Shown in pieces: positions 6,275 to 50,064 of a DNA stretch of 64,000 nucleotides. Below the pieces are notes generated by a model, which ran no database searches, was not told the origin of the DNA, and was given only the letters and a program-made list of their open reading frames with translations. The translations under genes were made by a program, and so were the position numbers. The stretch lies in the NCBI RefSeq assembly GCF_027568515.1, contig NZ_JANKZF010000013.1, positions 62,001 to 126,000 of the forward strand, written 5' to 3'. The stretch's first letter is position 1; every line of letters begins with the position of its first letter. Source of the stretch: Arthrobacter sp. HY1533. GTDB lineage: Bacteria; Actinomycetota; Actinomycetes; Actinomycetales; Micrococcaceae.

Positions 6275-7365
6275 ATGCAAACACCGCAAAGCCCTGCCTG
6301 GTTCAGGCGACTTCCTCTCCCCGCAGTGGTCGCGGCTGCCGTGGCCCTTGCGCTTGTGGCAGGACTTGCGGGTGGCTGGATCGGCACGCTTCTCACCCGC
6401 CCGGCAGCCGCACCGGCATCCGTGGCCGGCACCTGCGACGCGACCCAGGTTGCCCTAGGCGTGCTGCCCGGCGTCGTCACCGTCTCCGTCAGCAACGGCA
6501 ACGCCAGCGGCGTGGGCAGTGGTGTCATTGTCCGCAAGGAGGGCTACATCATGACGAACAACCATGTCATCTCCGCGGCGGCCACCGGCGGCACCATTGA
6601 GGTGCTGTTCAGCGACGGCAACAGCGCGGAGGCGGAGCTGGTGGGCCGTGACCCCAAGTCGGACCTTGCTGTCCTGAAGGTCAAGTCCAGCAAGGGCCTG
6701 CCCACTGTTGAACTGGGCAAGTCGGCCAACGTTTTGGTGGGTCAGCCGGTGGTTGCGCTGGGCGCTCCCCGGGGCTCTCCAGCACGGTGACCTCAGGCAT
6801 TGTCAGCGCACTGGGCCGCAACGTGCCCGTCCCGAGCGACGACGACTCCACCGCCATATTGGTGGGCGCCATCCAAACCGACGCCTCCATCAATCCCGGA
6901 AACTCCGGCGGCGCATTGGTTGACTGCGCAGGGAAGCTGATAGGCATCAACAGTGCCATCGCCACCATCCCCAACGAGCTCGAGGTGGCCAGCGGCAGCG
7001 TGGGCATTGGGTTCTCCATCCCCATTGACCTCGCGGCCCGCATCACCGAGCAACTCATCGACACGGGCAAGGTGGCCTACCCCTACTTTGGTGTGAGCGC
7101 CGTGCCGCTGCCGCCCGAGGCCGCAGAGCACTTTGGCGTGGAGGACGGCCTGTACCTGCAGTCCGTGGAGCCAGGTGGCCCCGCAGACAAGGCCGGGCTG
7201 AAGCGCAGCGACATCGTCACCCTCCTGGACGGGCGGCCGGCCACCAGCATCGCGGTCCTGACGGAAGTCACGCTGGCCAGGAAGGCCGGGGACACCCTCA
7301 AGGTGAGCTATGTGCGCGGCGGCAAGACAGCCACCACCAACCTCACCCTGGGGACCATTCCGTAG
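6275..7365 (+). pseudogene. HtrA/DegP-type trypsin-like serine protease with PDZ domain, split by a frameshift
   Basis: The 5' part (6275-6790) encodes a signal anchor (VVAAAVALALVAGLAGGW, about residues 12-30) and the start of an S1C protease with NNHVI (catalytic His) and DLAVLKV (catalytic Asp). It then goes out of frame at GAPRGSPAR and stops. The remainder continues in the next frame from about 6772 to 7365, with [21 protein letters not shown] (catalytic Ser) and a PDZ domain ending in [17 protein letters not shown]. One added base near 6770 would restore [19 protein letters not shown], the usual family sequence. All three catalytic residues survive across the two frames, so this is either a recent one-base deletion or a sequencing error. 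GGAG lies about 7 nt before the ATG. An intact product would be membrane-anchored and act in envelope protein quality control. Confidence 0.85.
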
Positions 7366-8266
7366 CTTCCGCCAAGGGGTAGGCGACAATCGCGATCTTG
7401 CGGCCGTCTGGCGACCAGCTGGGCACGTTCATGGTTCCCTGCCCGCCAAAAACGTGGGCCAGCTCCCGCACGGTGCCGTTTTTCTCCAGAAGCCGCACGA
7501 CGACGGGCACGTCCGCCGGGTGCCCCAGCGTTCCCGGCGGGAAGCTGACAAAGGCAATCCTTGAGCCGTCCGGTGAAGGGTGCGGGAACCAGTTGACCTG
7601 TTCGTCAAAGGTCAGCTGCTCCGGGGTGCCGCCTACTGCCGGCATGCGGAACAACTGCGCATGGCCCGGCACGCTTGAGCCGCGTTCGGAATTGAAATGG
7701 ATCCATGCCCCGTCGGGCGAGAACTCGGCGCCGTCGTCGGGGAAGTCGTCATCCGTGAGTTGGATGTCCGGGCCGCCTGCGGCAGGGACCGTGAACACGT
7801 TTGTGCGAACTTTCCCGCCGTCCACGGTGAGGCCAATGTAGGCCAGGGTTCCGCCGTCCGGGGACACCCCGTGCAGGTAGTGGCGGAAGCCCGCACCGTT
7901 GTCATTCGTGACGCGGCGCGGCGCATCCCGGCCACCGCCGTCGACGGTTGCGGTGTCGAGGCCGACCGCATAAATGTGGCCATCCTCGCTGGAGACGTAG
8001 GCCGTGGCGCCGTCGGGGCTGATGACGTGGTCGTTGTTGATCTCGGCAATGCCGCCCAGCCCAATTTCCTCAAGCCCGCCGGTCCCCTCGGCCGCCAGGC
8101 GGAACAGGCGACCGTCCCCGTTGATGAGCAGGCTCTTCCCGTCGGGACTCCAGTTCGGCGCCTCAAACAACAGCTCGTCGGAGGAGAAACGGAGCGTCGC
8201 CGCGCCCGTCTCGACCTCGATGATCTGCAGCTCAGCTCGTTGGCCGGGCCGCAGCCGGCGGCTCAA
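7343..8266 (-). CDS. TolB-like beta-propeller (PD40 repeats) protein
   Basis: 307 residues with repeated blades of the form SPDG ([54 protein letters not shown]), typical of PD40/TolB-like propellers. There is no signal peptide, so it is probably cytoplasmic. The TTG start (8264-8266) overlaps the TGA stop of the upstream ThuA-like gene (TTGA), which indicates translational coupling and placement as third gene of this operon. Function is unknown. Propellers of this type also occur in oligogalacturonate lyase-like proteins, so a carbohydrate role is possible. The 3' end overlaps the convergent protease gene by 23 bp. Confidence 0.75.
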
Positions 8267-9006
8267 GGCAGGAACGATTCGCGGGCCGGATTGGTCACTT
8301 CGGGCTGCTGGCGGTGCTGCCCGGGCTGTGCCACCCAGCCGACGCCGTTGGCGATGACCCGCTGCACCTGGGGGTGGTGGTAGACGGGGTACTCCTGGTC
8401 GCCGGGGCTGAAGTAGAAGATCCTGCCCTTGCCGCGTGAGAAGGTGACGCCGGAGCGGAACACCTCTCCCCCGGTGAAGGAGCTGATGAAGATCAGGTCG
8501 TCGGGCTCGGGGATGTCGAAGAGTTCCCCGTACATTTCCTGTTCCGGGATGACGATGGGGCTTTCAATGCCCGCTGCGATCGGGTGGGAGGGCTTGACGG
8601 TCCACACCAATTCCCGTTCACCTTCATTGCGCCACTTCAACGAGCAGGTGGTGCCGAGCAGGCGGGTGAAGATCTTGGCGAAATGCGCCGAGTGCAGCGC
8701 AACCAACCCCATGCCACCGAGCACGTGGCGCTGCATGCGCTCAACCACTTCCTCGGAGACGGCGTCGTGGGCAATGTGGCCCCACCACAGCACCACGTCG
8801 GTCGTGGCCAGGGTTTCCTCGCTCAGGCCGTGCTCGGGGTCGGCCAGGGTGGCGGTGGTGATGTTGGCATTGGGGTAGAACTCCCGCAGCGACTCCGCAA
8901 TGGCGCCGTGCATGCCTGTGGGGTACATGCTGCCGATGGTGGCGGGTTCGTTGTTGAGTTCGTGGACGCCTTCGTTCCACACCAGGATGTTGAGTTTTTC
9001 AGCCAT
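8263..9006 (-). CDS. ThuA-like (trehalose utilization) domain protein, copy 1
   Basis: 247 residues with the ThuA fold, a glutamine-amidotransferase-like flavodoxin relative: NILVWNEGVHE at the N-terminus, then [58 protein letters not shown] and FYFSPGDQEYPVYHHPQV. In rhizobia ThuA is encoded with ThuB (a Gfo/Idh/MocA dehydrogenase) for trehalose and related disaccharide use through 3-keto sugars. The same pairing occurs here: the Gfo/Idh gene ends 2 bp upstream. A paralogue with the same blocks lies at 47321-48109. The exact reaction of ThuA is not established. Confidence 0.85.
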   Translation of the reverse strand: MAEKLNILVWNEGVHELNNEPATIGSMYPTGMHGAIAESLREFYPNANITTATLADPEHGLSEETLATTDVVLWWGHIAHDAVSEEVVERMQRHVLGGMGLVALHSAHFAKIFTRLLGTTCSLKWRNEGERELVWTVKPSHPIAAGIESPIVIPEQEMYGELFDIPEPDDLIFISSFTGGEVFRSGVTFSRGKGRIFYFSPGDQEYPVYHHPQVQRVIANGVGWVAQPGQHRQQPEVTNPARESFLP

Positions 9007-9008
9007 GG

Positions 9009-10106
9009 TTAGAGCCTCACTTCACGCTGTTCGAGTGCGGATTTGTAGCATGCGTCAATGATCAGTGCCCGGGTCAGCGCCACAGAGCCGTCGTACTCGC
9101 CCCAAACTTCTTCACCGCCACGGATGGCCGCAATGAACTCGTCCACCACGGCCTGGTGGTTTCCGTCGGCCGGAACTTCGGCCGCATAGTCTGCGTTGAC
9201 CTCTTCCTTGTCGGTGAAGATCTTCAGCCCGGAGTCCGCGACTTCAAGTGAATGGGCAACCCGAAGTTCGGCACCGCCGTCGGTCCCGTAGACGCGGAAG
9301 TCCATCAGGTCTGCGGGGTCACGGTAGCTGGCCCAGCCAGCCTCCACCACCAGGGTGACACCGCCCTCAAGGCGGATGAAGGCCGAGGCGAAGTCCTCGA
9401 CCTCAAACTTGTTGTTGGCCGATGCAGCCGTGAAATTGCTGCCACCGCCCAGTCCACGCGGCCCCAATTCGGAATACGCGGACGCCGAAACAGAGATGAC
9501 CTTGGGCTCGCCCAGCAGGTGCAGTGCGTAGTCCAGCACGTGCACGCCGAGGTCGGCCAGGGGCCCGCCACCGGCCAGTTCAGGGCTCGTGAACCAGCTG
9601 CCAAGCGTGGGGATCCCGCGGCGTCGCAGCCAGGAGGCCTTGGCGTAGTAGGGGCGGCCCAGTTCGCCGTCGTCGATGATGGTCTTGAGCTTTGTGATGT
9701 CTCCGCGGCGGCGGTGGTTGAACACCACGTCCAGGACGCGGCCGGCCTGGCGGGCCGCGGCAACCATGGCCGCACCTTCCTCACCGTTGCGGGCCAGCGG
9801 CTTTTCGCTCAGGACATGCAGCCCGCGTTCCAGGGCCGCAATGCTGATGGGTGCGTGGAGGAAGGTGGGAACGGCAACGCTGATGGCGTCCAGCCCGTCC
9901 AGTTCCAGCAGGTCCTCCCAGCGGGCAAAGCCATGGGCGATGTTGTACTGGGCCTGGAGCTGGGCCAGGAGTTCGGCCTCCATGCCGGCCACGGCAACAA
10001 CCTCCACCCCGGCCACGTTGCTGAACGCCTCGATGTGTTGCTGGCCTGCCCAGCCAACGCCCACAACACCAACCTTGAGGGTTGCCGGCACAGTCATATC
10101 ACTCAC
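9009..10106 (-). CDS. Gfo/Idh/MocA family oxidoreductase (ThuB-like), copy 1
   Basis: 365 residues. The N-terminal Rossmann fold contains VGVVGVGWAGQQHIEAF, and HVLSEKPLARN is the conserved EKP motif after the NAD(P) domain. The C-terminal beta-sheet domain contains GGPLADLGVHVLDYALHLLG, where the conserved H is the usual catalytic base region. It is predicted to oxidise or reduce a sugar or polyol with NAD(P). It is first gene of the operon with ThuA-like and PD40 genes and follows a promoter (10194-10222) shared with two other operons of this locus. Substrate is not predictable; oxidation of a glycoside at C3 is the analogy from ThuB. Confidence 0.88.
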   Translation of the reverse strand: MSDMTVPATLKVGVVGVGWAGQQHIEAFSNVAGVEVVAVAGMEAELLAQLQAQYNIAHGFARWEDLLELDGLDAISVAVPTFLHAPISIAALERGLHVLSEKPLARNGEEGAAMVAAARQAGRVLDVVFNHRRRGDITKLKTIIDDGELGRPYYAKASWLRRRGIPTLGSWFTSPELAGGGPLADLGVHVLDYALHLLGEPKVISVSASAYSELGPRGLGGGSNFTAASANNKFEVEDFASAFIRLEGGVTLVVEAGWASYRDPADLMDFRVYGTDGGAELRVAHSLEVADSGLKIFTDKEEVNADYAAEVPADGNHQAVVDEFIAAIRGGEEVWGEYDGSVALTRALIIDACYKSALEQREVRL

Positions 10107-10193: not shown

Positions 10194-10222
10194 AACCTAA
10201 TCGAACTTAAATTTACGGTCAA
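10194..10222 (-). promoter_or_regulatory. Promoter with shared operator, ThuA/Gfo-Idh operon
   Basis: Minus-strand -35 TTGACC (10217-10222), 17-bp spacer, -10 TAGGTT (10194-10199). The -35 is preceded by CTTTTGA and the spacer contains AAGTT, as in the promoters at 13826-13854 and 16472-16509. Confidence 0.7.
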
Positions 10223-10331
10223 TCAAAAGTGTCCACATGACGAGACAGCAATTTGCTGGCCGGTGCGCCGGAACGCTCATGCGGGGCCCACTGGCGCCGG
10301 AATCTTTTGCCACTGCACCACCAAAAGGGAT

Positions 10332-10372
10332 GCGGCACCCGGGTGGGTCAGGGAGACCCACCCGGGTGCCGC
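10332..10372 (-). terminator. 18-bp perfect hairpin after the ABC importer operon
   Basis: Arms 10332-10349 and 10355-10372 pair without mismatch around AGGGA. Read on the minus strand it is followed by ATCCCTTTTGG, so it probably terminates the permease operon. It separates that operon from the ThuA/Gfo-Idh promoter. Confidence 0.7.
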
Positions 10373-10405
10373 CGTCGTACTCGGACAGGCTAGAGACTGG
10401 GACCC

Positions 10406-10500
10406 GGTTACTGGGCCCACGCCAGCGAGGGGTCCCAGTCGAGGCCCGCGACTGCGAGCTGGTTGCTGGGCCCACGCCAGCGAGGGGCCCCAGTCGAGGC
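10406..10500. repeat. Two 40-bp direct repeats, period 55 bp
   Basis: Units 10406-10445 and 10461-10500 match at 38 of 40 positions (core CTGGGCCCACGCCAGCGAGG). Each contains or borders CCCAGTCGAGG, and GACTGGGACCC before the first unit pairs with GGGTCCCAGTC inside it. It lies just downstream of the permease stop codon. No gene is seen in 10107-10524. Confidence 0.75.
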
Positions 10501-10524
10501 ACGAGACTGGGGAGCTGGTGGGGA

Positions 10525-11364
10525 TTACTTCACGGCGCCAGCGGTCAGCCCTGCCACGAAGTTCTTCTGCAGGAGCAGGAAGCCGATGACAATCGGGATG
10601 CTGACCACCACGGAGGCGGCCATGATCTGGTTCCAGTAGACGTTGGTCTGCGTCGAGTAGAGCTGCAGGCCCACGGCCAGGGTGCGGTTGGCGTCGGTGG
10701 TCATGACGGACGCGAACAGGACCTCGCCCCAGCTGGTCATGAAGCTGTAGATGGCCACGGCCACCAGGCCGGGCCGCGCCGTGGGCAGGATGATCTTGAA
10801 CAGGGCCCGCATGGGACCGCAGCCATCCACCTTGGCGGCTTCGTCGAGCTCACGCGGGATTCCGTTGAAGTACCCGGCGAGCATCCAGATGGAGAACGGC
10901 AGCGAGAACGTCAGGTAGGTGATGATCAGCCCCGCGCGGGTTCCCACCAGTTGGACGCCGAAGTTCGTGTTGATGTTCACGAAGATCAGGAACAGCGGAA
11001 GCAGGAACAGCACGCCTGGCAGCATCTGCGTGGAAAGGACGGCTCCGGAGAACAGGGAACGGCCGCGGAACGTGTAGCGGGACACCGCGTAGGCGGCGAA
11101 GACGGCAATGATGAGCGAGAGCACCGTGGACACGGTGGAGACGATCACCGAGTTCACGAAGTAGTCGGCCAGCGGGACCGTCTTCCACATGTCGATGTAG
11201 GGCTGGATGGTCAAGGTGGTGGGCCACCACGAGAACGCGCCCTGCACATCCTGCAGGGGCTTCAGGCCGGAGATGACCATGACGTAGATCGGGATGATGG
11301 TGAAAATGCTGAGCAGGGTGATGGTGGCGACCCTGAAGACCTTGGTTCCGGTTGTGTCATGCAT
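10525..11364 (-). CDS. Carbohydrate ABC transporter permease (MalG-like, CUT1)
   Basis: 279 residues with about six transmembrane segments, the first at VATITLLSIFTIIPIYVMVISG. The binding-protein-dependent permease EAA loop, which contacts the ATPase, appears as ELDEAAKVDGCGPMRALFKIILP. It is paired with the permease at 11357-12340, whose stop it overlaps by 8 bp, and with the lipoprotein at 12432. No cognate ATPase is in the window, which is common for actinobacterial CUT1 systems that share one MsiK-type ATPase. Confidence 0.9.
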   Translation of the reverse strand: MHDTTGTKVFRVATITLLSIFTIIPIYVMVISGLKPLQDVQGAFSWWPTTLTIQPYIDMWKTVPLADYFVNSVIVSTVSTVLSLIIAVFAAYAVSRYTFRGRSLFSGAVLSTQMLPGVLFLLPLFLIFVNINTNFGVQLVGTRAGLIITYLTFSLPFSIWMLAGYFNGIPRELDEAAKVDGCGPMRALFKIILPTARPGLVAVAIYSFMTSWGEVLFASVMTTDANRTLAVGLQLYSTQTNVYWNQIMAASVVVSIPIVIGFLLLQKNFVAGLTAGAVK

Positions 11365-12340
11365 TGTCTTTCCTCCGGTTCATGAAGAGAACGTAGATTC
11401 CGCTGACAACCATCAGGAACAGCAGGAGCAACACTGACATGGCGGCACCGGAGCCGAAGTTCCAGGTCAGGAATGAGGCGTTGTAGATGTGGAAGGAGAT
11501 CAGGTCGCCGGCTGGCGGCTGGGATCCGCCGAACAGGACGAACGGGGTGTTGAAGTCGTTGAAAGTCCACAGGAACATGACCAGCACCAGGGACATGTTG
11601 ACCGGGCGGAGCATGGGCAGCGTGATGTTCCACCACTGGCGCAGCGGCTTGGCACCGTCAACGGAAGCGGCCTCGTAGACATCGGCGGGGACGGACTGCA
11701 GCCCGGCCATCAGCATCAGGAATGCGAAGGGCCACAACCGCCAGATGGCGACGATGACCACGGCAGCGAAGGCGTTGTCGCCAATGAGCCAGAAGGGCTT
11801 GTCGCCGGGCAGGCCCAGGTTGTCAAAGATGAGGTGGTTCAGGGCGCCGTTGTCCTTTTGCAGCATGAACTTCCAGGCAATGACGCCGGCGTACATGGGC
11901 AGGGCATAGGGGATCAGGAACAGGGTGCGGAAAATGGCGCGGCCGCGGAACGTCTTTTGCAGGGCCACCGCAGCGGCCATGCCCAGTCCCCAGGACAGGC
12001 CGACGACGAGGACGGTGAAGGCGACGGTGACGCCGAAGGACTTCAGCAGGCCCAGCCCCACGGAGGAGTCGAAGTCCAGGGCGACCTGGTAGTTCTTCAG
12101 GCCAACGAACGGTGCGTTGCCCCAGTTGGCAATGAACATCTTGGTGAGCTTGAGAAAGCTCATCCAGATGCCTGTCAGCATGGGGATGACGTGGATGACG
12201 AGTTCAAAGATGACGGCGGGGGCCAGCAGCGCGTAGGGCAGCCACCAACCGGCACGGCGGGGCTGGCGGTCCTTCTTGCCGGCTGGCCCAGGAGCGGGGT
12301 CGGACTTCTTTATGGCGGTGGTTGCAGACACTGCGAACAC
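11357..12340 (-). CDS. Carbohydrate ABC transporter permease (MalF/UgpA-like, CUT1)
   Basis: 327 residues. A basic N-terminal region (KKSDPAPGPAGKKDRQPRR) precedes about six membrane segments. The EAA loop reads DVYEAASVDGAKPLRQWWNITLPML. It forms the second channel half with the downstream MalG-like protein. The start at 12340 is the only long option, and 91 bp with a hairpin separate it from the substrate-binding protein gene. Substrate should be an oligosaccharide or glycoside; nothing in the permease defines which. Confidence 0.9.
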   Translation of the reverse strand: MFAVSATTAIKKSDPAPGPAGKKDRQPRRAGWWLPYALLAPAVIFELVIHVIPMLTGIWMSFLKLTKMFIANWGNAPFVGLKNYQVALDFDSSVGLGLLKSFGVTVAFTVLVVGLSWGLGMAAAVALQKTFRGRAIFRTLFLIPYALPMYAGVIAWKFMLQKDNGALNHLIFDNLGLPGDKPFWLIGDNAFAAVVIVAIWRLWPFAFLMLMAGLQSVPADVYEAASVDGAKPLRQWWNITLPMLRPVNMSLVLVMFLWTFNDFNTPFVLFGGSQPPAGDLISFHIYNASFLTWNFGSGAAMSVLLLLFLMVVSGIYVLFMNRRKDNA

Positions 12341-12370
12341 TCACCTTTCTTTCATGAACAGTTGAGGGGC

Positions 12371-12404
12371 CCGGCGGCGGGTGCCTGTGGCAGCCCGCCG
12401 CCGG
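12371..12404 (-). promoter_or_regulatory. Intercistronic hairpin between binding protein and permease genes
   Basis: CCGGCGGCGGG (12371-12381) and CCCGCCGCCGG (12394-12404) form an 11-bp stem with no T-tract. Hairpins in this position commonly keep binding-protein mRNA more abundant than permease mRNA. A similar structure lies at 50013-50046. Confidence 0.6.
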
Positions 12405-12431
12405 TAGTGCTGTGCAGCTTGCTCGGAGGTG

Positions 12432-13736
12432 CTATCCCGCTGCTTCAACTGCTTCCTGCGCCGTGGTCAGCGCAGCCTTGATGTCGTCCTTGCTGACGGT
12501 GCCGCCGGAGGCAACCGTGGCGAACATCTGGTTCATGGCCTTGCCCACTGTGCTCTCGAACTGGTCCTCGGCAGCGACCAGGGGAAGGGGCTTGGACTTG
12601 TTCTCGTAAATGTCGGAGAAGGTCTTGGCGAGTTCGGCGTTGTCGGTGAAGCTCGGCGTCACCCCGGCCAGCACGGGCAGGGCTGCGAAGGGCTTGTCGA
12701 GGGCGGCCTGGGTGGCTTCACTGGTCATGAACTTCACGAACTGCAGTGCGGAGTCCTTGTTCTTGGTGTTCTTGAAGATGGACATGTTGATGCCGGCCAC
12801 CATGGTGGCCACTTCCTTGGCGCCCGCGGGGGCAGGGTAGGCCACAACACCGAAGGCATCATCCTTCATGCCCTGGGAGGCGATGGAGCTGTTGGCGTTG
12901 CTCTGGCTGAGCATCATGGCAACCTTGCCGTTGGCAAAGTCGTTGACGGCCTTGGTTGCGTTGTCGTACTGGGCGTTGCCCGGGTCAACCACCTTGTCCG
13001 TCTGCATCAGGTCCAGGTAGCGGGAGATGCCGTTGACCACGCCGTCCGAGGTGAACGTGGGCTTGCCCTCTGCATCGAAGAATTCGGAGTCGTTCTGGGC
13101 AGCGTTGATGAACGCGAAGTGGGAGTTTTCGGTGTAGCTGCCGGCGGCCAGGGCGAAGCCGTGCTTGTCACCGGTGGTGAGCTTCTTGGCGGCGGCCACC
13201 ATGTCTTCCCAGGTGGTGGGCGGGGTCAGGCCGGCATCCTTGAACATGGCCTTGTTGTAGTACAGGCCGTAGGCCAGGCCGTACAGGGGAACCGACGTGG
13301 GGTCCTCTCCGGGGACGCCGCCGGTGTCCATGGCGGTCTTGACGAACTTGTCCTTGCCGCCGATTGCGGTGAAGGCTGCGTCATCGAAGGGCATGAACGC
13401 GCCGGTGGACTGCAGCGAGGCAGCCCAGGTGTTGCCGATGTTCAGCACATCGGGTGCCTGGCCGGAGGTCACGGCGGTCTGGATTCGGGTCTGGAGGTCG
13501 TTCCAGCCGATGACTTCAAGGTTGACCTTGATGCCCGTCTCTTCCTCGAACTTCTTCAGCTGCGGGGTGAGAACTTCCTTGTCGTTGTCCAGGCTGGTGC
13601 CCTGGTTGCTGGCCCAGTAGGTCAGGGTCTTGCCGTCCGAGCTGCCCGAGCCGGCATCGCTGCCGCCGCTGCATCCGGTGGCGGTGATGGTCAGTGCCGC
13701 AATGGCCGCTGCTGCGGCAAAAGTACGTAATTTCAC
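12432..13736 (-). CDS. Sugar ABC transporter substrate-binding lipoprotein (CUT1)
   Basis: 434 residues from a GTG start at 13736, chosen because AAGGAAG lies about 8 nt upstream and the signal peptide begins here (KLRTFAAAAAIAALTITATGC, lipidated Cys22). The open frame extends to 13826 without initiation features and overlaps the promoter. The mature part is a family 1 extracellular solute-binding protein: YWASNQGTSLDNDKEVLTPQ near the N-terminus and DVLNIGNTWAASLQSTGAFMP in the first lobe. It captures a sugar outside the cell for the two downstream permeases. Confidence 0.9.
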   Translation of the reverse strand: MKLRTFAAAAAIAALTITATGCSGGSDAGSGSSDGKTLTYWASNQGTSLDNDKEVLTPQLKKFEEETGIKVNLEVIGWNDLQTRIQTAVTSGQAPDVLNIGNTWAASLQSTGAFMPFDDAAFTAIGGKDKFVKTAMDTGGVPGEDPTSVPLYGLAYGLYYNKAMFKDAGLTPPTTWEDMVAAAKKLTTGDKHGFALAAGSYTENSHFAFINAAQNDSEFFDAEGKPTFTSDGVVNGISRYLDLMQTDKVVDPGNAQYDNATKAVNDFANGKVAMMLSQSNANSSIASQGMKDDAFGVVAYPAPAGAKEVATMVAGINMSIFKNTKNKDSALQFVKFMTSEATQAALDKPFAALPVLAGVTPSFTDNAELAKTFSDIYENKSKPLPLVAAEDQFESTVGKAMNQMFATVASGGTVSKDDIKAALTTAQEAVEAAG

Positions 13737-13825
13737 TTCCGTGACTTCCTTGTCTGTGGGTGGGAATATCCGCAAATCTTCGAAAATGGCGGGCGCCGAA
13801 ACTCGTGGCACCCGACGTGAAACCA

Positions 13826-13854
13826 AACCTAGATGAACTTATGACGATGGTCAA
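13826..13854 (-). promoter_or_regulatory. Promoter with shared operator, ABC importer operon
   Basis: Minus strand -35 TTGACC (13849-13854), 17-bp spacer ATCGTCATAAGTTCATC, -10 TAGGTT (13826-13831). Upstream ACTTTTGA and spacer AAGTTC match the promoter at 16472-16509, with the same ATCGTCA between. Confidence 0.75.
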
Positions 13855-14010
13855 TCAAAAGTCGTGAAATATTTCCTAACATATTGATTCGAGGCATCTC
13901 AAGGAAGGCCGCGGTGGCGGATATTGGCCCGTGGAAATGAGCCATGGGGGCCAAAGTTGCCCGGAATCCAGGCATTTTTGCCCCACAAAAGGCGATGTAA
14001 CCAGAGTAAC

Positions 14011-14022
14011 TGAACCGGTTCA
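14011..14022. promoter_or_regulatory. CG-centred palindrome TGAACCGGTTCA (LacI-type operator candidate)
   Basis: A perfect 12-bp palindrome with central CG, the usual form of LacI-family operators, in the 346-bp gap between the lacI-like stop and the binding-protein gene. It lies about 157 bp upstream of the binding-protein -35. It may be the site of the adjacent LacI regulator. No gene is visible in this gap. Confidence 0.5.
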
Positions 14023-14082
14023 CTGTTGGGCGTTTGTTATTGATTCGTTATCGCAGTTTGGGTGCCGCCGAGACGTCGGCAG

Positions 14083-15156
14083 CTATCCGAAGGGGTTGTT
14101 GCCCAGGCTCTCGCGCAACTGCAGGACGCCGGGCTGTGCCGCCATGTTGCGCGGCTCATGGCCGGCCACCAGGTCCAGGAGCAGCAGGGCGGAATTCCGG
14201 CCCAGGTCCGCCACATTGCGTCCCAGCGCGGCCACTCCGGGGGAACTCAGCCTGCACAGGATGGAGTCATCCCAGCTCAACACCGAAACCTGCCCCGGAA
14301 CGTCAAGACCCAGGCGCTTGAGGGCTTGCAGCCCGCCCACGGCCATGAGGTCGTTGCCATAGATGACCGCCGTGGGGAACTCGGGCGACCCCGGCGCGAG
14401 CCCGGCCATGACAGCGATGGTGGCCGTGCCGCCGTCGTCCGCGGAATAGTCGGCGGGGCACAGCACAACCGTCATGCCCAGGCGGGCGGCCTGATCCACA
14501 ATCTGCGCCGACTTGGTCTCCTCGTGCAACAGCTCGACGGGGCCGGAGACGAAGGCGACGTGCCGGTGCCCGCGCTCGTGCAGCGCCTGAACCACTGTGG
14601 CAACATCCACCGCCTGAGACACGGTGAGGTTGGAATTCCGGGCCGACGGGGCAATTTCAGGGCCGACACCCAGCCGCACATACGGGAGCCTGTGGCTCTC
14701 GAGCAGTGGCGGGCGGGGGTCCTCGCGGACATGGTCAAAGAGGATGACGCCGTCAACACGCCCCTCCCCCGCCCACCTCTCGTAGACGGCCAGGTCCCGG
14801 TTTTGCCCTTCGGGAACGGTGAGGGGGTCCACCATGCGCAGCATCAGGCTCATGTCGCGGGCGCCGAGAACGCCCTCAATGCCGGCCAGGATGCTCATGT
14901 AAAACGGCTCCGCACCGATCTGTTCGGGATCGCGGTAGAGCACAATTCCCACCACGTCGCTGCGGGACTGGGACAGTGCCCGCGCGCTGGAACTGGGGTA
15001 CCAGCCCAGCTCGCCGGCCAGCTCAAGGACACGGGCGCGGGTGGAGTCACTGACCCCCGGCTGGCCGTTCAGCGCGTAGGAGACCGACGCCTTGGAGATG
15101 CCGAGCCGGCGCGCCAGGTCGCTGATGGTCACCTTGCCGGCGGAGGGGGATGCCAC
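14083..15156 (-). CDS. LacI family transcriptional regulator, copy 1
   Basis: 357 residues. The N-terminal helix-turn-helix reads VTISDLARRLGISKASVSYALNG (about residues 9-31), followed by a hinge and a periplasmic-binding-type effector domain (GIVLYRDPEQIGAEPFY, RVDGVILFDHV, TAVIYGNDLMAVGGLQAL, VLSWDDSI). It begins 5 bp after the ROK gene stop and so is co-transcribed with it. By position it should control the sugar importer and neighbouring operons in response to a sugar ligand. The palindrome at 14011-14022 is a candidate target. Confidence 0.9.
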   Translation of the reverse strand: MASPSAGKVTISDLARRLGISKASVSYALNGQPGVSDSTRARVLELAGELGWYPSSSARALSQSRSDVVGIVLYRDPEQIGAEPFYMSILAGIEGVLGARDMSLMLRMVDPLTVPEGQNRDLAVYERWAGEGRVDGVILFDHVREDPRPPLLESHRLPYVRLGVGPEIAPSARNSNLTVSQAVDVATVVQALHERGHRHVAFVSGPVELLHEETKSAQIVDQAARLGMTVVLCPADYSADDGGTATIAVMAGLAPGSPEFPTAVIYGNDLMAVGGLQALKRLGLDVPGQVSVLSWDDSILCRLSSPGVAALGRNVADLGRNSALLLLDLVAGHEPRNMAAQPGVLQLRESLGNNPFG

Positions 15157-15161
15157 CTTGA

Positions 15162-16409
15162 TCAGGCCTGCGCGTGGGCGGTGACCAGGCGTTCCACCGA
15201 CGCCGGGGACAGCACGTGGTCAACCACCATTCGCCCGGCACCCAGCACGCCGGCGTGGTCCCCGGCCATGGACTGGACAATCCGCAGCCGTGCCGTGGCC
15301 AGCGGCAGTGAGCGCTGGTAGACGATCTCACGGACCCCGGCCATGAGGTATTCGCCGGCCGAGGACAGCCCGCCACCAATGACAATGACGGAAGGGTTCA
15401 GCAGGTTCACGGAGGCCGCCAGGACATCGCCCACATCGCGGCCCGCCTGGCGCATGGCCTGGATGGCGGCCAGGTTTCCGCGGCGGGCCAGTTCCAGCAC
15501 GTCTTCGCCTGTATTTGCCGGGACACCGCCGGCGTTGAGGGCCGCGGCCACCGCCGGGCCCGATGCCATGGCCTCCAGGCAGCCGTAGTTGCCACAGCGG
15601 CACAGCACCTCGCCGCCGCGCGGCACCCGCACGTGGCCAATGTCCCCGGCCGTGCCGTCCGCGCCGCGTTGCAGCAAACCGCCGCTGATGATGCCGGCGC
15701 CAATGCCGGTGGCCACCTTGATGAAGAGCAGGTCCTGGGCGTCGGGCCAGAAGTTCGCACGCTCGCCCAGCGCCATGATGTTCACGTCGTTGTCCACCAG
15801 CACCTCGGTGGGGAAGCGCCGCTGCACGTACTCCGGCACGTCAAAGCCGTCCCAGCCGGGCATGATCGGCGGGCTGGCCGGCCGCCCGGTGGAGTGCTCC
15901 ACGGGGCCGGGCAGCCCAATTCCGATGCCCACCAGCTCGCGTTCGTGGCGCCCGGCCCGGGCGAGGACCTGCGTGCACAGCTCCAGCACGGCGTCGAGCA
16001 CGTCGGTGGGGCCGGCCGCGACGTCCATGGATTCGCGCAACTCGCTGAGAACGCGCCCGCCCAGGTCCGTCAGGGCGATCAGGACGTGCGTTGCACCAAC
16101 GTCAACGGCGAGGATCACCCGCGATGACGGGTGGAAGGCAAAGCGCGACGGCGGACGCCCGCCCGAGGAGACTGCCTCACCTGCGGGGCCGATGAGTCCG
16201 GCGGCACTGAGTGCCTCGATGCGCGCCGCCACGGTGGAGCGGGCCAGTCCGGTGATTTCGGCCAGCTCGGCGCGGGTGCGTGCCTGCCCGTCACGCAGGA
16301 TCTGGAAGACGTCACCGGCCCGTGAGTGGCTGAACGGCTCCGCGGCAGCAGGGCCGGCCGGGCTGGGGGCGGCTTGTCGCGGGCGTGGCTGGACTGGTGA
16401 CTTTGGCAT
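15162..16409 (-). CDS. ROK family protein (regulator with N-terminal winged helix)
   Basis: 415 residues from ATG 16409. The winged helix (residues about 30-90: ARTRAELAEITGLARSTVAA) precedes an ASKHA kinase-like domain with VDVGATHVLIALTD, IGIGLPGPVE and VDNDVNIMALGE. It also has the ROK zinc motif CRCGNYGCLE and a terminal phosphate-binding VIGGGLSSAG. The helix-turn-helix marks it as an XylR/NagC-type repressor rather than a pure sugar kinase, although kinase residues look intact. TATTTAT just before the ATG suggests a leaderless mRNA; the frame remains open to 16472 but no ribosome-binding site supports that. It diverges from the isomerase operon at 16549 and is a candidate for the shared operator. 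Confidence 0.87.
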   Translation of the reverse strand: MPKSPVQPRPRQAAPSPAGPAAAEPFSHSRAGDVFQILRDGQARTRAELAEITGLARSTVAARIEALSAAGLIGPAGEAVSSGGRPPSRFAFHPSSRVILAVDVGATHVLIALTDLGGRVLSELRESMDVAAGPTDVLDAVLELCTQVLARAGRHERELVGIGIGLPGPVEHSTGRPASPPIMPGWDGFDVPEYVQRRFPTEVLVDNDVNIMALGERANFWPDAQDLLFIKVATGIGAGIISGGLLQRGADGTAGDIGHVRVPRGGEVLCRCGNYGCLEAMASGPAVAAALNAGGVPANTGEDVLELARRGNLAAIQAMRQAGRDVGDVLAASVNLLNPSVIVIGGGLSSAGEYLMAGVREIVYQRSLPLATARLRIVQSMAGDHAGVLGAGRMVVDHVLSPASVERLVTAHAQA

Positions 16410-16471
16410 GCCCAATAAATAGCACGCGGGCTTACATCTGTCACAATCCGAGAAAGGGGGCGTGTTTCGCA

Positions 16472-16509
16472 AACTTTTGCTTGACCATCGTCAAAAGTTC
16501 CCCTAGGTT
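16472..16509 (+). promoter_or_regulatory. Promoter with shared operator, isomerase/oxidoreductase operon
   Basis: -35 TTGACC (16481-16486), 17-bp spacer ATCGTCAAAAGTTCCCC, -10 TAGGTT (16504-16509). AACTTTTG (16472-16479) and CAAAAGTT (16492-16499) form an inverted repeat straddling the -35, a good repressor site. It is the most symmetrical of the three copies in this locus. Confidence 0.78.
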
Positions 16510-16548: not shown

Positions 16549-17283
16549 ATGACGTATTCCCTGCAGTTGTACACGGTCCGCAAGCCCCTTGAGGAAGACC
16601 TTCCCGGCACCATTGCCCGCGTTGCCGAACTTGGCTTCACCAAGGTTGAACCCTACAACTTCGCGGCCACGGCCGACGCCCTCGCCGCAGCTTTTGCGCA
16701 GCACGGCATCACCGCTCCGTCCGGCCACGCACCCCTGCTCAGCGCCGACCAGGATGAAATCTTTGCCGCAGCCAACAAGCTCGGCATCACCACTGTCATT
16801 GACCCCTTCATTCCCGCCGATCAGTGGCAGACCGAAGAGGACATCCAGAAGATTGCCGACGGCCTGAACGCGGCAGCCAAGAAGGGTGCCGAATACGGCG
16901 TCCGCGTTGGCTACCACAACCACGCATGGGAACTGGAGTCCAAGATCAACGGCACCACGGCCCTTGAGTACTTTGAAACCCTGCTTGACCCCGAGCTGGT
17001 CCTGGAGGTGGACACCTACTGGGTGTCCGTGGGCGGGGAAAGCGCCGTGGACATCCTTGGCAAGCTGGGCGAGCGCGTGAAGTACATTCACATCAAGGAC
17101 GGCCCGCTCAACACGGACACCTCCGCCCAGCTGCCCGCGGGCCAGGGCGAGGTTCCCATCTGGGATGTCATTGGCGCGGCCAAGCACCTGGAGGTCGGGG
17201 TCGTGGAGTTTGACGACTACGCCGGCGACATCTTCGAGGGCATTGCCGCAAGCCTTGCCTTCCTCAATGCAGGAAAGGCCTGA
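16549..17283 (+). CDS. Sugar phosphate isomerase/epimerase family protein, copy 1
   Basis: 244 residues, a xylose-isomerase-like TIM barrel (AP endonuclease family 2). Blocks seen are GFTKVEPYNF, GVRVGYHNHAWEL (metal-binding His-Asn-His), LVLEVDTYW (metal Glu/Asp) and VKYIHIKDGP. ATG 16549 is supported by AAGGAG 6 nt upstream. It is first gene of a four-gene operon with two Gfo/Idh/MocA proteins and a second barrel protein. Proteins of this fold in such operons can be isomerases, dehydratases or lyases of keto-sugars; the exact reaction cannot be read from sequence. Confidence 0.88.
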   Translation: MTYSLQLYTVRKPLEEDLPGTIARVAELGFTKVEPYNFAATADALAAAFAQHGITAPSGHAPLLSADQDEIFAAANKLGITTVIDPFIPADQWQTEEDIQKIADGLNAAAKKGAEYGVRVGYHNHAWELESKINGTTALEYFETLLDPELVLEVDTYWVSVGGESAVDILGKLGERVKYIHIKDGPLNTDTSAQLPAGQGEVPIWDVIGAAKHLEVGVVEFDDYAGDIFEGIAASLAFLNAGKA

Positions 17284-17289
17284 TCCCCA

Positions 17290-18396
17290 ATGGCTAAGAC
17301 AGGACCCGTCGGCGTAGCCTTCATCGGCGCCGGAAACATCAGCAAGCAGTACCTGGACAACCTCACAACCTTCCCGGACGTCAAGGTCCTGGTAGTTGCG
17401 GATCTCTTTGAGGAAGCCGCCGCAGCGCGTGCCGCGGAATACGGCATTGAGGTTTCGGGCGGCGTTGACGCAGCGCTGAACCACCCCGACGTCGAAATCA
17501 TCGTGAACCTGACCATCCCGGCAGCCCACGTGGAGGTGGCCACCGCGGCCGTCCGCGCCGGCAAGCACGTGTGGACGGAAAAGCCGTTCTCCCTGGACCG
17601 CGACAGCGGACTGGGCCTGCTGAAGGAAGCCCAAGCCGCTGGTGTCCGCCTGGGCTGCGCCCCCGACACCTTCCTTGGTGCGGGACTGCAGACGGCCCGC
17701 CGGCTCATCGACGCCGGTGAGATCGGCACGCCGCTCACGGCATTGACCATGTTCCAGTCGCCGGGCCCCGAATCCTGGCACCCCAACCCCGCATTCCTGT
17801 TCCAGCAGGGCGCCGGACCGCTGTTCGACATGGCCCCCTACTACCTGACTGCCCTGGTGCAGGCCTTCGGGCCCATCGCCAAGGTGGCCGCCGTGGGAAG
17901 CACCGCATTCCCCACCCGCACGGTGGGCTCCGGCCCCAAGGAAGGCGAGGTGTTCGACGTCGAGGTTCCCACGCATGTCAGCGCCATCGCACAGTTTGAA
18001 TCCGGCGCGTCCTCGCACAGCGTCTACAGCTTCGAGTCCCCCAAGGCCCGCATGGGATTTGTGGAGATCACAGGCACCGAGGGCACCATCTCCCTGCCGG
18101 ACCCGAACAACTTCGACGGCGAGATCAAGCTGTGCAAGCGTGGCGAGGAGGACTGGACCGCCATTGCGGCCGAGGGCCCCGCCGACGGGCGCGGCCTGGG
18201 CGTGCTGGACATGGCACGCGCCATCCGCGCCGGCGTCCCGCACCGGGCCACGGGCGAGCTGGCCTACCACGTGCTTGATGCCATGGTCTCCATCACCGAA
18301 TCCGTGGACAGCGGCGAATTTGTCACCGTGGCCAGCACGGCACCGGCTTCCGAGCCCGTGCCCGTGGACTGGAACCCGACCGCAGCAACCCTCTAG
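17290..18396 (+). CDS. Gfo/Idh/MocA family oxidoreductase, copy 2
   Basis: 368 residues. The Rossmann part has VAFIGAGNISKQYLDNL and GKHVWTEKPFSLDRDS (EKP motif). The C-terminal domain contains GAGPLFDMAPYYLTALVQAFGP. Here the family's usual 'D-G-H' block reads D-M-A-P-Y-Y, so the catalytic His is replaced and Tyr may serve. NAD(P)-dependent sugar oxidoreduction is inferred. It starts 6 bp after the isomerase stop. Confidence 0.87.
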   Translation: MAKTGPVGVAFIGAGNISKQYLDNLTTFPDVKVLVVADLFEEAAAARAAEYGIEVSGGVDAALNHPDVEIIVNLTIPAAHVEVATAAVRAGKHVWTEKPFSLDRDSGLGLLKEAQAAGVRLGCAPDTFLGAGLQTARRLIDAGEIGTPLTALTMFQSPGPESWHPNPAFLFQQGAGPLFDMAPYYLTALVQAFGPIAKVAAVGSTAFPTRTVGSGPKEGEVFDVEVPTHVSAIAQFESGASSHSVYSFESPKARMGFVEITGTEGTISLPDPNNFDGEIKLCKRGEEDWTAIAAEGPADGRGLGVLDMARAIRAGVPHRATGELAYHVLDAMVSITESVDSGEFVTVASTAPASEPVPVDWNPTAATL

Positions 18397-18407
18397 GAAA
18401 AATACAC

Positions 18408-19634
18408 ATGACCTCCCCCCAGTCCCGCCCGCTTGGCGTGGCCGCAATCGGCTATGCGTTCATGGGCCAGGCGCACTCCAACGCCTGGCGCACCGTGGCC
18501 AACCACTTCGACGTTCCCGCCTTTGAGCAGAAGGTCCTGGTGGGGCGCAATGCCGAAGCCGTGGCCGCGGCAGCCGCCAAGTACGGCTGGAGCGAATCGG
18601 CCACGGACTGGCGGGAGGTCATTGCGCGCGAGGACATCGACATCGTTGACATCTGTGCGCCCGGCTGGCTGCACGCGGAAATAGCCGTTGCGGCGCTGGC
18701 CGCAGGCAAGCACGTGCTGGTGGAGAAGCCGCTGGCCAACACCATGGCCGAGTCGGAGACCATGGTGGCCGCGGCACAGGCCGCCCGCGCCGCCGGCGTC
18801 CGCTCCATGGTGGGCTTCAACTACCGCCGAGTCCCGGCACTCGCCCTGGCCCGCAAGCTCATTGCCGACGGCGGCCTGGGCACCGTCCGGCAGGTCCGCG
18901 CGTCGTACCTGCAGGACTGGCTGGCCGACGGCGACGCCCCCATGACGTGGCGGCTGCGCAAGGAAACCGCCGGCTCGGGTGCGCTGGGCGACATCGCCTC
19001 ACACGCCATTGACCAGGTCCAGCACCTGCTGGGCGACGCCGTCACCGGGGTGTCTGGGCGGCTGCACACCTTCACCACTGAGCGGCCCGGCCCCGAGGGG
19101 CCCGAACCCGTAACGGTCGACGACGCCGCCTGGGCCACGCTGTCCCTGGCCGGCGGGGCCGTGGCTAGCGTTGACGTGTCCCGGGTGGCGCTGGGCCAGA
19201 AGAACGCTCTGCGCCTGGAGGTTTATGGCACGGCCGGGTCACTGACGTTCAACCTGGAGAACCCCAACGAGCTGCACTACCTGAACGGCTCAGAGCCGAT
19301 CGAGGTGCAGGGCTTCCGGCGCATCCTGGTCACCGAACCGGAGCACCCGTACATTTCCGGCTGGTGGCCGCAGGGCCATGTGATTGGCTGGGAGCACAGC
19401 TTCACCCACCAGATCCGCGACTTCCTGCTGCACATTGCCAACGGGACCGACCCCTCGCCGTCGTTCGAGGAGGGCCTGGGCGTGCAGCAGGTCCTGGCAG
19501 CCATTGAGGAATCCTCCGCTGCCGGCGGCGCCACCGTCCCGGTGGTCTCGGCGGCATCGGTGGTCTCGGTGGTTGAGCCTGTCGAAACCATCGAAACCGT
19601 CGAAACCGTTTCCATCCCCTCGTCAAAGGACTGA
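18408..19634 (+). CDS. Gfo/Idh/MocA family oxidoreductase, copy 3, with palindrome-encoded tail
   Basis: 408 residues. The N-terminal nucleotide domain reads GVAAIGYAFMGQAHSNAW with GKHVLVEKPLANTMAES. The catalytic region is GSGALGDIASHAIDQVQHLLGD, with the Asp and His of the family. The conserved fold ends near VLAAIEESSAA. The last 30 or so residues (VSVVEPVETIETVETVS) are a translation of the dispersed palindrome at 19559-19609, so the C-terminus has been extended by a repeat. It is third gene of the operon, 11 bp after copy 2 and 3 bp before the next gene. Confidence 0.88.
   Translation: MTSPQSRPLGVAAIGYAFMGQAHSNAWRTVANHFDVPAFEQKVLVGRNAEAVAAAAAKYGWSESATDWREVIAREDIDIVDICAPGWLHAEIAVAALAAGKHVLVEKPLANTMAESETMVAAAQAARAAGVRSMVGFNYRRVPALALARKLIADGGLGTVRQVRASYLQDWLADGDAPMTWRLRKETAGSGALGDIASHAIDQVQHLLGDAVTGVSGRLHTFTTERPGPEGPEPVTVDDAAWATLSLAGGAVASVDVSRVALGQKNALRLEVYGTAGSLTFNLENPNELHYLNGSEPIEVQGFRRILVTEPEHPYISGWWPQGHVIGWEHSFTHQIRDFLLHIANGTDPSPSFEEGLGVQQVLAAIEESSAAGGATVPVVSAASVVSVVEPVETIETVETVSIPSSKD
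19559..19609. repeat. Dispersed REP-like palindrome inside a coding sequence
   Basis: GGTTGAGCCTGTCGAAACC followed by two more TCGAAACC steps, preceded by two GGTGGTCTCGG copies. It matches the elements at 2039, 3445 and 5283 and is read in frame as the C-terminal tail of the Gfo/Idh/MocA protein ending at 19634. Confidence 0.75.
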
Positions 19635-19637
19635 ACC

Positions 19638-20639
19638 ATGGCCCGCCCGTACACCTTGTTCACCGGCCAGTGGGCCGACCTGCCCCTCGAGGAAGTGGCC
19701 AAGCTGGCCTCCGAGTGGGGTTATGACGGCCTGGAAATCGCCTGCTCCGGCGACCACCTGGACCCATGGCGCTGGGACGAGCCCGGCTACGTCGCCGGCA
19801 AACTCGCCATGCTGGAGGGCTACGGCTTGAAGGTGTGGGCCATCTCGAACCACCTGAAGGGCCAGGCGGTGTGCGATGACCCCATTGACTTCCGCCACCA
19901 GGCAATTGTTGGCTCCAAGGTGTGGGGCGACGGGGACCCGGAAGGTGTCCGCCAGCGCGCGGCCGAGGAAATGAAGCTGACCGCCCGGCTGGCCCAGGCC
20001 CTGGGCGTGAAGACAGTTGTCGGTTTTACGGGCTCTTCCATCTGGCAGTACGTGGCCATGTTCCCGCCCGTCCCGGAATCAGTGATCGAGGCCGGCTACC
20101 AGGACTTTGCCGACCGCTGGAACCCCATCCTTGATGTCTTTGACGAGTGCGGCGTGCGCTTTGCCCATGAGGTCCACCCCTCGGAAATCGCCTACGACTA
20201 CTGGACCACCGTCCGGACGCTGGAAGCCATCGGGCACCGTGAGGCGTTCGGGTTGAACTGGGACCCCAGCCACTTCATGTGGCAGGGCATCGACTCGGTC
20301 TCCTTCATCTGGGACTTCAAGGACCGGATCTACCACGTTGACTGCAAGGACACGAAGCTGCGCCCCACCGGCCGGAACACGGTCATGGGCTCGCACCTGC
20401 CGTGGGGCGATCCGCGCCGCGGCTGGGACTTTGTCTCCGCGGGCCGCGGCGACGTGCCCTGGGAATCGTCCTTCCGCGCACTGACGGCCATTGGCTATGA
20501 CGGCCCCATCTCCATCGAGTGGGAGGACGCCGGCATGGACCGGCTGCAGGGCGCACCCGAGGCCCTCGCAGCACTGAAGAAGTTCGACTTTGCCCCGTCC
20601 GCACTGTCCTTCGACGCGGCGTTCAGCAACCAGGGCTGA
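19638..20639 (+). CDS. Sugar phosphate isomerase/epimerase family protein, copy 2
   Basis: 333 residues, TIM barrel of the xylose isomerase-like family. Blocks: [59 protein letters not shown] (metal Glu and His), [12 protein letters not shown] (Asp, His), [11 protein letters not shown] and [11 protein letters not shown] (Glu). It is longer than copy 1 and clearly different in sequence, so the two probably catalyse different steps. It is last gene of the operon and is followed by a large hairpin. Confidence 0.88.
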
Positions 20640-45319: not shown

Positions 45320-45355
45320 AAAGTCCTGCACCAAGAAGTCCTGGTGCAGGACTTT
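45320..45355 (+). terminator. Terminator after the OYE operon
   Basis: 14-bp stem AAAGTCCTGCACCA / TGGTGCAGGACTTT, 8-nt loop, followed by TTTTGCG. It separates this operon from the GntR gene. Confidence 0.88.
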
Positions 45356-45454
45356 TGCGTCCTAGTGCCCAGGAGGAAACGGGCCAGCTGGTGCGAACCC
45401 GTCGCGGAGCCCGCCTTCGGGCCCGCGTTCCGGTGGCGATATATCCTATGTTGC

Positions 45455-46108
45455 ATGCCCACTCCCCCGCCGGCCGGACTCCACAAGCGGTCCCTGCTGC
45501 GCAACGACGTCTACGAATCCATCCGCGACGCCATTGTTGACGGCACCTTTGCCCCCGGCGAGCGCCTGCGCGATCCCGAGCTGGAGGCCTGGCTGGGCGT
45601 GAGCCGCACGCCGATCCGCGAGGCCCTGCTGCGCCTGGAACGGGCCGGCCTGATTGTTTCCCAGCCGGGCAGGGCCACCATGGTGGCGCCGCTGGACCCG
45701 GGCTCCACGGTCAACGCCCAGCAGGTGGTTGCGGCCATGCACGAACTGGCGGCCCGGCTGGCCGTGCCGCTGCTGGTTCCCTCTGACCTCGCTGCCATGA
45801 CCGGCGCCAATGCGCGCTTCGCCGAGGCCATCAAGGACAACGACGCCGATGCCGCCCTGGCTGCCGACGACGAGTTCCACGCAACCATGGTGGGCGCCTG
45901 CGGCAACGAGATGGTCCCCCTTGTGCTGGAGCAGGCCATGCCGGTGCTGCGGAGGGTCGAGCGGCAACGTTTCAGTTCCCAGGCCGCGCTGCATTCAGTC
46001 ACCGCGCACGCCGAGATCATCAAGTTGGCCGCCACCGGGGATGCCGATGCCGCCGCAATCGCCACGCGGGAGAACTGGCTTTCGCTGGGATCCCCGGCGG
46101 AAAGCTGA
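45455..46108 (+). CDS. GntR family regulator (FCD type)
   Basis: 217 residues from ATG 45455. The winged helix contains NDVYESIRDAIVDGTFAPGERLRDPELEAWLGVSRTPIREALLRLERAGLI, the GntR signature. The C-terminal FCD-like helical domain contains metal-binding candidates (DDEFHATMVGACGNEM, SVTAHAEIIKLAATGD). TATCCT (45442-45447) stands 7 nt before the ATG, suggesting a leaderless mRNA, and TTGCATGC overlaps the start. It may regulate itself and acdS. Confidence 0.87.
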   Translation: MPTPPPAGLHKRSLLRNDVYESIRDAIVDGTFAPGERLRDPELEAWLGVSRTPIREALLRLERAGLIVSQPGRATMVAPLDPGSTVNAQQVVAAMHELAARLAVPLLVPSDLAAMTGANARFAEAIKDNDADAALAADDEFHATMVGACGNEMVPLVLEQAMPVLRRVERQRFSSQAALHSVTAHAEIIKLAATGDADAAAIATRENWLSLGSPAES

Positions 46109-46118
46109 GGCGGGCGAA

Positions 46119-46165
46119 CCCAGTCCACGCGGGGGAACGGTGCTGGCCGCTCCCCCGCGACTGGG
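46119..46165. terminator. Hairpin between converging GntR and Gfo/Idh genes
   Basis: Arms 46119-46136 and 46151-46165 (CCCAGTC..CGCGGGGGA / TCCCCCGCGACTGGG) pair with a 3-nt bulge. Likely bidirectional; no strong T-tract. Confidence 0.6.
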
Positions 46166-46175
46166 CTGCAGGCCG

Positions 46176-48109: not shown

Positions 48110-48161
48110 GGTGATCACTTTCTTGTCAGTGTGGCTAGCAAAGGAGAAATGGTTGTTTGGG

Positions 48162-49022: not shown

Positions 49023-49031
49023 GACGATCTC

Positions 49032-50000: not shown

Positions 50001-50012
50001 GGTGGCTCCTCT

Positions 50013-50046
50013 GCCGGTTCCAAAGCCCTGGGGCCGTGGAACCGGC
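50013..50046 (-). promoter_or_regulatory. Intercistronic hairpin, operon 2
   Basis: GCCGGTTCC (50013-50021) and GGAACCGGC (50038-50046) form a 9-bp stem between the binding-protein and permease genes, as at 12371-12404. Confidence 0.55.
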
Positions 50047-50064
50047 GTCGAAATGGTGGCGGCG

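Follow-up and report, generated by a model that had tools for sequence, protein, structure and literature searches.

Two candidate operators in a sugar gene cluster of Arthrobacter sp. HY1533 are most likely read by its ROK-family regulator

Three promoters in a sugar gene cluster of Arthrobacter sp. HY1533 share the same core and flanking elements, and genes for two regulators, one of the ROK family (15162..16409, minus strand) and one of the LacI family (14083..15156, minus strand), lie in their midst; the question raised by this locus is which of the two regulators reads the shared sequence. The window analyzed here is the whole 64,000-nucleotide stretch of contig NZ_JANKZF010000013.1 (positions 62,001 to 126,000) in which the cluster lies. 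The first-pass annotation of this DNA had proposed one cluster-encoded repressor, either ROK or LacI, acting through a shared operator. The shared operator was retained in this study, with ROK as its most likely reader on strong comparative support; the single repressor was not, as the second regulator has its own candidate site at the transporter operon, and therefore control is probably not exerted by one repressor. Combined, the results favor, at a probability of roughly 0.87, a local sugar regulon in which ROK would bind the palindrome ACTTNTG-N12-CANAAGT over the -35 element and repress, while LacI would read TGAACCGGTTCA.

The core TTGACC-N17-TAGGTT is exact at all three promoters: at 16481..16509 on the plus strand (TTGACC at 16481-16486, 17 bp, TAGGTT at 16504-16509), heading IolE-MocA2-MocA3-XylI; at 13826..13854 on the minus strand, heading a sugar-binding protein and two permeases (SBP-Perm1-Perm2); and at 10194..10222 on the minus strand, heading MocA1-ThuA-PD40. 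The gene names are working names taken from family matches, and each gene run presumably forms one operon. The exactly 17-bp spacing, the CTTTTG upstream of each -35 element and the AAGTT in each spacer, all described by the first-pass annotation, were borne out, with AAGTT lying at an identical offset in all three spacers. The inverted repeat reported at 16472 is likewise a perfect one (AACTTTTG/CAAAAGTT, 16472-16499); its start takes in the upstream arm AACTTTTG, and the core itself begins at 16481. The regulon size of eleven genes had to be corrected, since the three promoters head 3 + 3 + 4 = 10. The genome-wide motif search that had been suggested placed the exact core only at these three cluster promoters in the whole genome (4,304,416 bases). 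With one mismatch, 10 further places were found, and a reversed control gave 9 matches at up to one mismatch; CTTTTGNTTGACC also has three exact matches in the genome, all in the sugar cluster, and its reversed control has none.

The sequence ACTTTTG-N12-CAAAAGT forms a palindrome across the -35 element, and its general form ACTTNTG-N12-CANAAGT has the features of a ROK-type operator, namely a palindrome with A/T-rich arms and a spacer of approximately 11-12 bp. A scoring matrix was built from 79 + 15 sites of other genomes only (leaving out one locus, L145), in which the positions ACTTTTG, TTGAC, CG, CA, AAG and TA..TT are nearly invariant. Across the window this matrix returned 49.9, 43.8 and 13.0 bits at the three promoters, with the next-best place at -5.4. 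The highest score belongs to the candidate ROK operator AACTTTTGCTTGACCATCGTCAAAAGTT (16472..16499, plus strand), which has perfect 8-bp arms around a 12-bp center and, at the IolE-MocA2-MocA3-XylI promoter, extends over the -35 element and into the spacer. The second belongs to the candidate ROK operator GACTTTTGATTGACCATCGTCATAAGTT (13836..13863, minus strand) over the promoter of the sugar-binding protein and permease operon. As judged from these sequences, the full candidate operators are only these two of the three sites. No further regulon members were detected in this genome at up to three mismatches to the full pattern in a whole-genome search. An arms-only genome search at one mismatch was not used, as it gave 41 matches vs. 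75 in the reversed control.

Both candidate operators are conserved in relatives. A ROK query was run against named genomes and the best 80 of 472 relatives were kept, nearly all of them titled Micrococcaceae. The palindrome and core were found upstream of ROK in 79 of these 80 named loci at up to two mismatches, with the promoter pointing away from ROK; in the 80th (L145) the site is present with one arm mismatch, as seen with a wider search window. The first-pass annotation had made its claim depend on conservation of CTTTTG-TTGACC-AAGTT in orthologous promoters, and the element is kept in 80/80. These ROK-side sites read ACTTTTG[C/A]TTGAC-like, and TAnnnT lies exactly 17 bp past the -35 element in 79/79. 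On the binding-protein side, the motif lies upstream of SBP in all 15 named loci with a close orthologue, including four without a nearby LacI gene; this count excludes six paralogous SBP matches (47-48% identity), at which the best site has five mismatches. On the opposite strand upstream of ROK, relatives of IolE, MocA2, MocA3 and XylI were found in 73/80 loci, and of the remaining seven, whose available sequence there is in every case shorter than 9 kb, six have some of these enzyme relatives and one (L088) none. In 46/80 loci, IolE lies no more than 1.5 kb from ROK. Most loci with IolE farther off have extra genes in between, weak permease matches among them, and there the operator therefore fronts those genes first. 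Two records, one titled Sporosarcina beigongshangi (L069) and one an Acidobacteria metagenome-assembled genome (L131), hold a Micrococcaceae-type cluster with ROK proteins 90% and 76% identical, respectively; they are perhaps mislabelled or contaminated assemblies.

The assignment of the palindrome to ROK comes from 197 genomes of the family, in which a ROK orthologue (ROK+) was called by a match at E 1e-80, a LacI orthologue (LacI+) at E 1e-60, and the 25-bp pattern at up to two mismatches. ROK orthologues were found in 110 of the 197 genomes and LacI orthologues in 19. The pattern occurs in 73/197, all 73 among the 110 ROK+ genomes and none among the 87 ROK- genomes (Fisher 2e-26, relatedness uncorrected), and for 84 of its 100 sites a ROK match is no more than 250 bp away. 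A LacI orthologue is lacking from 57 of the 73 pattern-bearing genomes, so the CTTTTG sites do not show the co-occurrence with a LacI gene that marks a LacI regulon. Because the pattern is confined to ROK+ genomes and mostly occurs without LacI, ROK rather than LacI is most likely the reader of the palindrome. In a wider sample the pattern was found in 42/394 genomes of the class, and outside the family 21 of 26 loci examined have an adjoining ROK of 52-62% identity. Two genomes (G097 and G114) carry a perfect arm palindrome before a distant XylI paralogue (68%), and a third (G079) carries one before MocA3-XylI, 6 kb from ROK; the palindrome is thus also placed ahead of pathway genes that do not adjoin ROK.

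Building on the sequences, positions, conservation and co-occurrence with ROK observed here, we infer binding by a ROK dimer, repression, and release by an inducer. A ROK dimer on the palindrome at 16472 and at 13836 would exclude RNA polymerase, this being the simplest reading because the palindrome overlies the -35 element and some of the spacer. Release from the operator would then follow when a sugar or pathway intermediate occupies the sugar pocket of ROK. The MocA1-ThuA-PD40 operon, with the same core promoter and a degenerate operator, would probably be under weak control, and LacI would act at TGAACCGGTTCA, approximately 160 bp upstream of the transporter operator.

Several observations weigh against this reading. 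The reversed 25-bp control gave 19 matches in the 197 genomes vs. 100 real sites, the co-occurrence counts are inflated by relatedness, and a genome called ROK- is only one with no match at E 1e-80. Outside the family, 5 of the 26 loci have no ROK beside the site. The strict pattern is missing from 37 of the 110 ROK+ genomes; among 36 of these that were inspected (all except G148, with one match inspected in genomes having two ROK matches), the arms are kept in 15 and not in 21. At the MocA1 promoter, a -35/-10 pair with 17 bp is retained, and the arms are not, in L069 and L250, the two near relatives that have this operon; the corresponding place in L250 (G024) reads TTGAAC-N17-TAGCTT. The center of the site (TTGAC..CG) lacks symmetry, and its conservation is therefore in part that of the promoter. 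Finally, it is possible that the protein bound at the palindrome is an activator in place of a repressor.

One alternative is that the three sites share nothing beyond a sigma-factor promoter, with the CTTTTG and AAGTT arms as an extended promoter element. As an actinobacterial promoter, TTGACC-N17-TAGGTT is plausible, and in four loci with LacI, in place of ROK, divergent from IolE (L262-L265) the core recurs (with TAAGTT in L263) together with another operator, TGAACCGGTTCA, 11-12 bp past the -10 element. The core was accordingly rejected as the operator itself and taken to be the core promoter. The arms behave differently. In register in L262-L265 they have 5 to 8 mismatches of 12, and every arm pair in the examined stretches of these loci has at least 4 mismatches. 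CTTTTG-N-TTGACC is limited to this cluster in the genome, and the arms are palindromic and outlast the loss of TTGAC in diverged clades: ROK+ genomes without the strict pattern often keep the arms while TTGAC changes (e.g., ACTTTTGCTCGACAATAATCAAAAGT and ACTTTTGCCAAACTATCGACAGAAGT). The arms also track the presence of ROK and the residues of its wing. In 40 ROK upstream regions (the 36 inspected genomes and four positives, G141, G079, G143 and G161), arms at up to two mismatches were found with 19/24 proteins of the GRPP wing type, 0/14 of the GRPS type and 0/2 of other types; within the 36 alone the counts are 15/20, 0/14 and 0/2. Control windows gave 14/400 within two mismatches, although these windows share their loci with the tested regions and may contain genuine operators. 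The wing motif, GRPP vs. GRPS, is therefore put forward as a candidate specificity determinant for the palindrome, and a shared promoter without an operator is considered unlikely.

The alternative that LacI, not ROK, reads the CTTTTG palindrome draws on the position of the LacI gene between two of the sites and on the pattern being carried by 16 of the 19 LacI+ family genomes, with three LacI+ genomes lacking it. It is rated as more improbable still. Besides the many pattern-bearing genomes without LacI and the absence of the arms where LacI adjoins IolE, LacI-bearing loci have a central-CG palindrome of their own. In the window this candidate LacI operator, TGAACCGGTTCA (14011..14022, plus strand), lies upstream of the transporter promoter; it is exact in 14/17 LacI-bearing loci, within two mismatches in the other three, and exact in 0/69 loci without LacI. 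It is an even palindrome with a central CG beside a lacI-type gene, as expected of a LacI regulon, and a central CG is described as usual in LacI operators (PMC4052901). The sequence GTGAACCGGTTCA was rejected as a genome-wide LacI marker, being too short and present in 28/197 genomes, mostly not LacI+, and counts linked to position were used instead. From these patterns LacI appears to read the separate palindrome TGAACCGGTTCA and not the CTTTTG site. A further alternative is that the similarity arose by chance or that a single promoter was recently duplicated. The spacers at 13826 and 16481 do agree at 14/17 positions, but both sites are separately conserved elsewhere with site-specific bases (the base after ACTTTTG being mostly C at ROK-linked and A at SBP sites), which makes this explanation highly implausible.

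With ROK assigned to the CTTTTG palindrome and LacI to its own candidate site, the transporter promoter region can be described by the distance between the two. In 17 distinct loci, 156-161 bp separate the start of the LacI site from the start of the ROK site upstream of the transporter (mean 158.8, standard deviation 1.4, over 18 rows, of which L273 is the same locus as L080). Up to two mismatches were allowed in the LacI sites of this set: 12 rows are exact, 4 have one mismatch and 2 have two. The DNA between the sites has a median pairwise identity of 0.47 vs. 0.45 when shuffled, and the highest identity reached after shuffling was surpassed by 13 of the 153 pairs, including the duplicate L080/L273. 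A constant length together with a diverged intervening sequence suggests selection on the spacing, and shared ancestry accounts for some of the constancy. It is tentatively proposed, with no great confidence, that the transporter operon is a fixed-geometry two-repressor array in which LacI and ROK (or LacI and a polymerase at the promoter that ROK covers) might act together via a DNA loop or helical phase, joining two signals from one sugar pathway. In many loci of the spacing set, the LacI site is preceded by CATAAC..GTAAC and followed by GTTA..GTCACA; these elements may represent a second promoter of the transporter operon.

At the third promoter, the degenerate candidate ROK site CACTTTTGATTGACCGTAAATTTAAGTT (10204..10231, minus strand) ranks third in the window at 13.0 bits; the left arm is preserved and the right one (TTTAAGTT) is degenerate. 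With this score, and with the arms unkept in L069 and L250, the promoter at 10194 was downgraded from a third full operator. The best match upstream of MocA1 has 4 to 6 mismatches in 7/7 MocA1 loci among the named genomes, and the operator at 10204, as judged by these comparisons, is a candidate site that is either young or decaying. In five of these seven loci (L093, L095, L098, L100 and L106), MocA1-ThuA directly follows ROK in the same direction; therefore, these genes belong to the system. A near-palindrome, CTTTTG-N12-CAAAAG (10303..10327), lies approximately 80 bp upstream of the MocA1 promoter and could possibly be a second weak ROK site, weakly supported by a one-mismatch arm match of a kind that is genome-wide no commoner than its reversed control. 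A strong hairpin at 10332-10372 (z -7.3), between permease 2 and the MocA1 promoter, is consistent with a separate MocA1-ThuA-PD40 transcript. L069 and L250 show a similar inverted repeat at the equivalent position.

The ROK gene encodes a helix-turn-helix region and a sugar-kinase-like domain (PF00480 ROK, 9.5e-58, 196.5 bits), the HTH_20, HTH_24 and HTH_IclR models matching within residues 50-94 of the long open reading frame. From the aligned start region its start is predicted to be the ATG at 16409, and the gene is probably leaderless. Its probable promoter (16416..16444, minus strand) consists of GTGACA, 17 bp and TATTTA, 6 nt before the ATG; GTGACA is invariant in 14 aligned rows (the window and 13 loci), and the -10 region and start codon vary. 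The candidate operator at 16472 sits 27 bp upstream of the -35 element of this promoter. The LacI gene is downstream of ROK (Pfam LacI 6.5e-11, Peripla_BP_3 3.1e-22). The transporter operon on the minus strand comprises the sugar ABC transporter binding protein SBP (12432..13736, SBP_bac_1 2.7e-52 in Pfam, with a putative GTG start at 13736), permease 1 (11357..12340) and permease 2 (10525..11364), both BPD_transp_1. Also on the minus strand are the Gfo/Idh/MocA oxidoreductase MocA1 (9009..10106, from a family match), a ThuA-family protein (8263..9006, ThuA 6.3e-33) and a TolB/PD40 beta-propeller-like protein (7343..8266, PD40 4.4e-20). The plus-strand operon encodes an IolE-like TIM-barrel sugar isomerase/lyase (16549..17283, AP_endonuc_2 3.5e-17), the Gfo/Idh/MocA oxidoreductases MocA2 (17290..18396, from a family match) and MocA3 (18408..19634), and XylI (19638..20639), a xylose-isomerase-like TIM barrel related to 2-hydroxy-3-keto-glucal hydratase (8ro4, E 8.1e-40; 2zds, E 7.8e-166). 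MocA3 is a relative of levoglucosan dehydrogenase, its score against the NCBIfam LevoglcsnDh model (NF052479) being 326.7 bits vs. the cut-off of 650 for that enzyme (LgdA). The cluster enzymes resemble the oxidation-elimination-hydration-reduction route for levoglucosan and glucosides, and the genes, as read from their family matches, point to the processing of glycosides or anhydrosugars by soil bacteria through oxidation, elimination and hydration.

A paralogous ABC transporter-ThuA-MocA operon lies at 46176-51390, between a GntR-type gene and a LacI-type gene of its own. The absence of the motif from this 46-51 kb operon, as given by the first-pass annotation, was upheld, as it has no good matrix match (next-best place in the window, -5.4 bits), and the matrix scan of the window returned no ROK operator in the region 45344-52572.

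Overall, these findings assign a candidate operator, and hence a regulon, to a ROK regulator that is found in more than half of the sampled family genomes (110/197), and set this operator apart from a second, LacI-type candidate operator in the same cluster. The correlation with the GRPP and GRPS wings points to a candidate specificity determinant in ROK proteins that can be tested directly, and the fixed LacI-ROK spacing offers a testable example of repressors from two unrelated families sharing one promoter region. The inducer of the route could be found through the candidate ROK operator. No description of this motif or regulon, of this ROK regulator, or of TGAACCGGTTCA was found in searches of open-licence literature.

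Related systems have been described in other bacteria. Among actinobacterial ROK regulators, RokB (Sco6115) of Streptomyces coelicolor has a site at PnovH, TTTGTTC-N11-GAACAAA, that is similar in arm length and spacing to the palindrome described here; however, its arm sequence is different, its genomic sites have a TVCVT center, the PnovH site overlaps a start codon, and RokB was tied by its authors to amino acid metabolism (PMC4856308). The bifidobacterial AraU and NagR and the XylR of Thermotoga maritima are also ROK regulators with motifs obtained by comparative genomics, and the gene for AraU and its operon are transcribed divergently from either side of the motif; these regulators serve other pathways and are likened by layout, not by motif letters (PMC5928203, PMC9599254, PMC3750489). 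The ROK protein of this cluster matches the NagC and Mlc models and the solved Mlc of E. coli, although its scores, 154.5 and 120.3 bits, fall far short of the NCBIfam cut-offs of 650 and 530 bits, respectively. In gene content, the levoglucosan pathway of Bacillus smithii is similar in its Gfo/Idh/MocA dehydrogenases, sugar-isomerase-like enzymes, sugar ABC transporter and LacI regulator (PMC7676230), whereas the term ROK is absent from the text of that paper and MocA3 is below the levoglucosan dehydrogenase cut-off. For Anaerocellum bescii, where the XylR sites are TTAGTTTGTTT-type palindromes, the genes are those of xylan use and no fixed spacing of LacI- and ROK-type sites was seen in the available part of the report (PMC12285236), one sugar system is controlled by two regulators, of the LacI type and the ROK type, each with validated sites of its own, as is proposed here for the Arthrobacter cluster.

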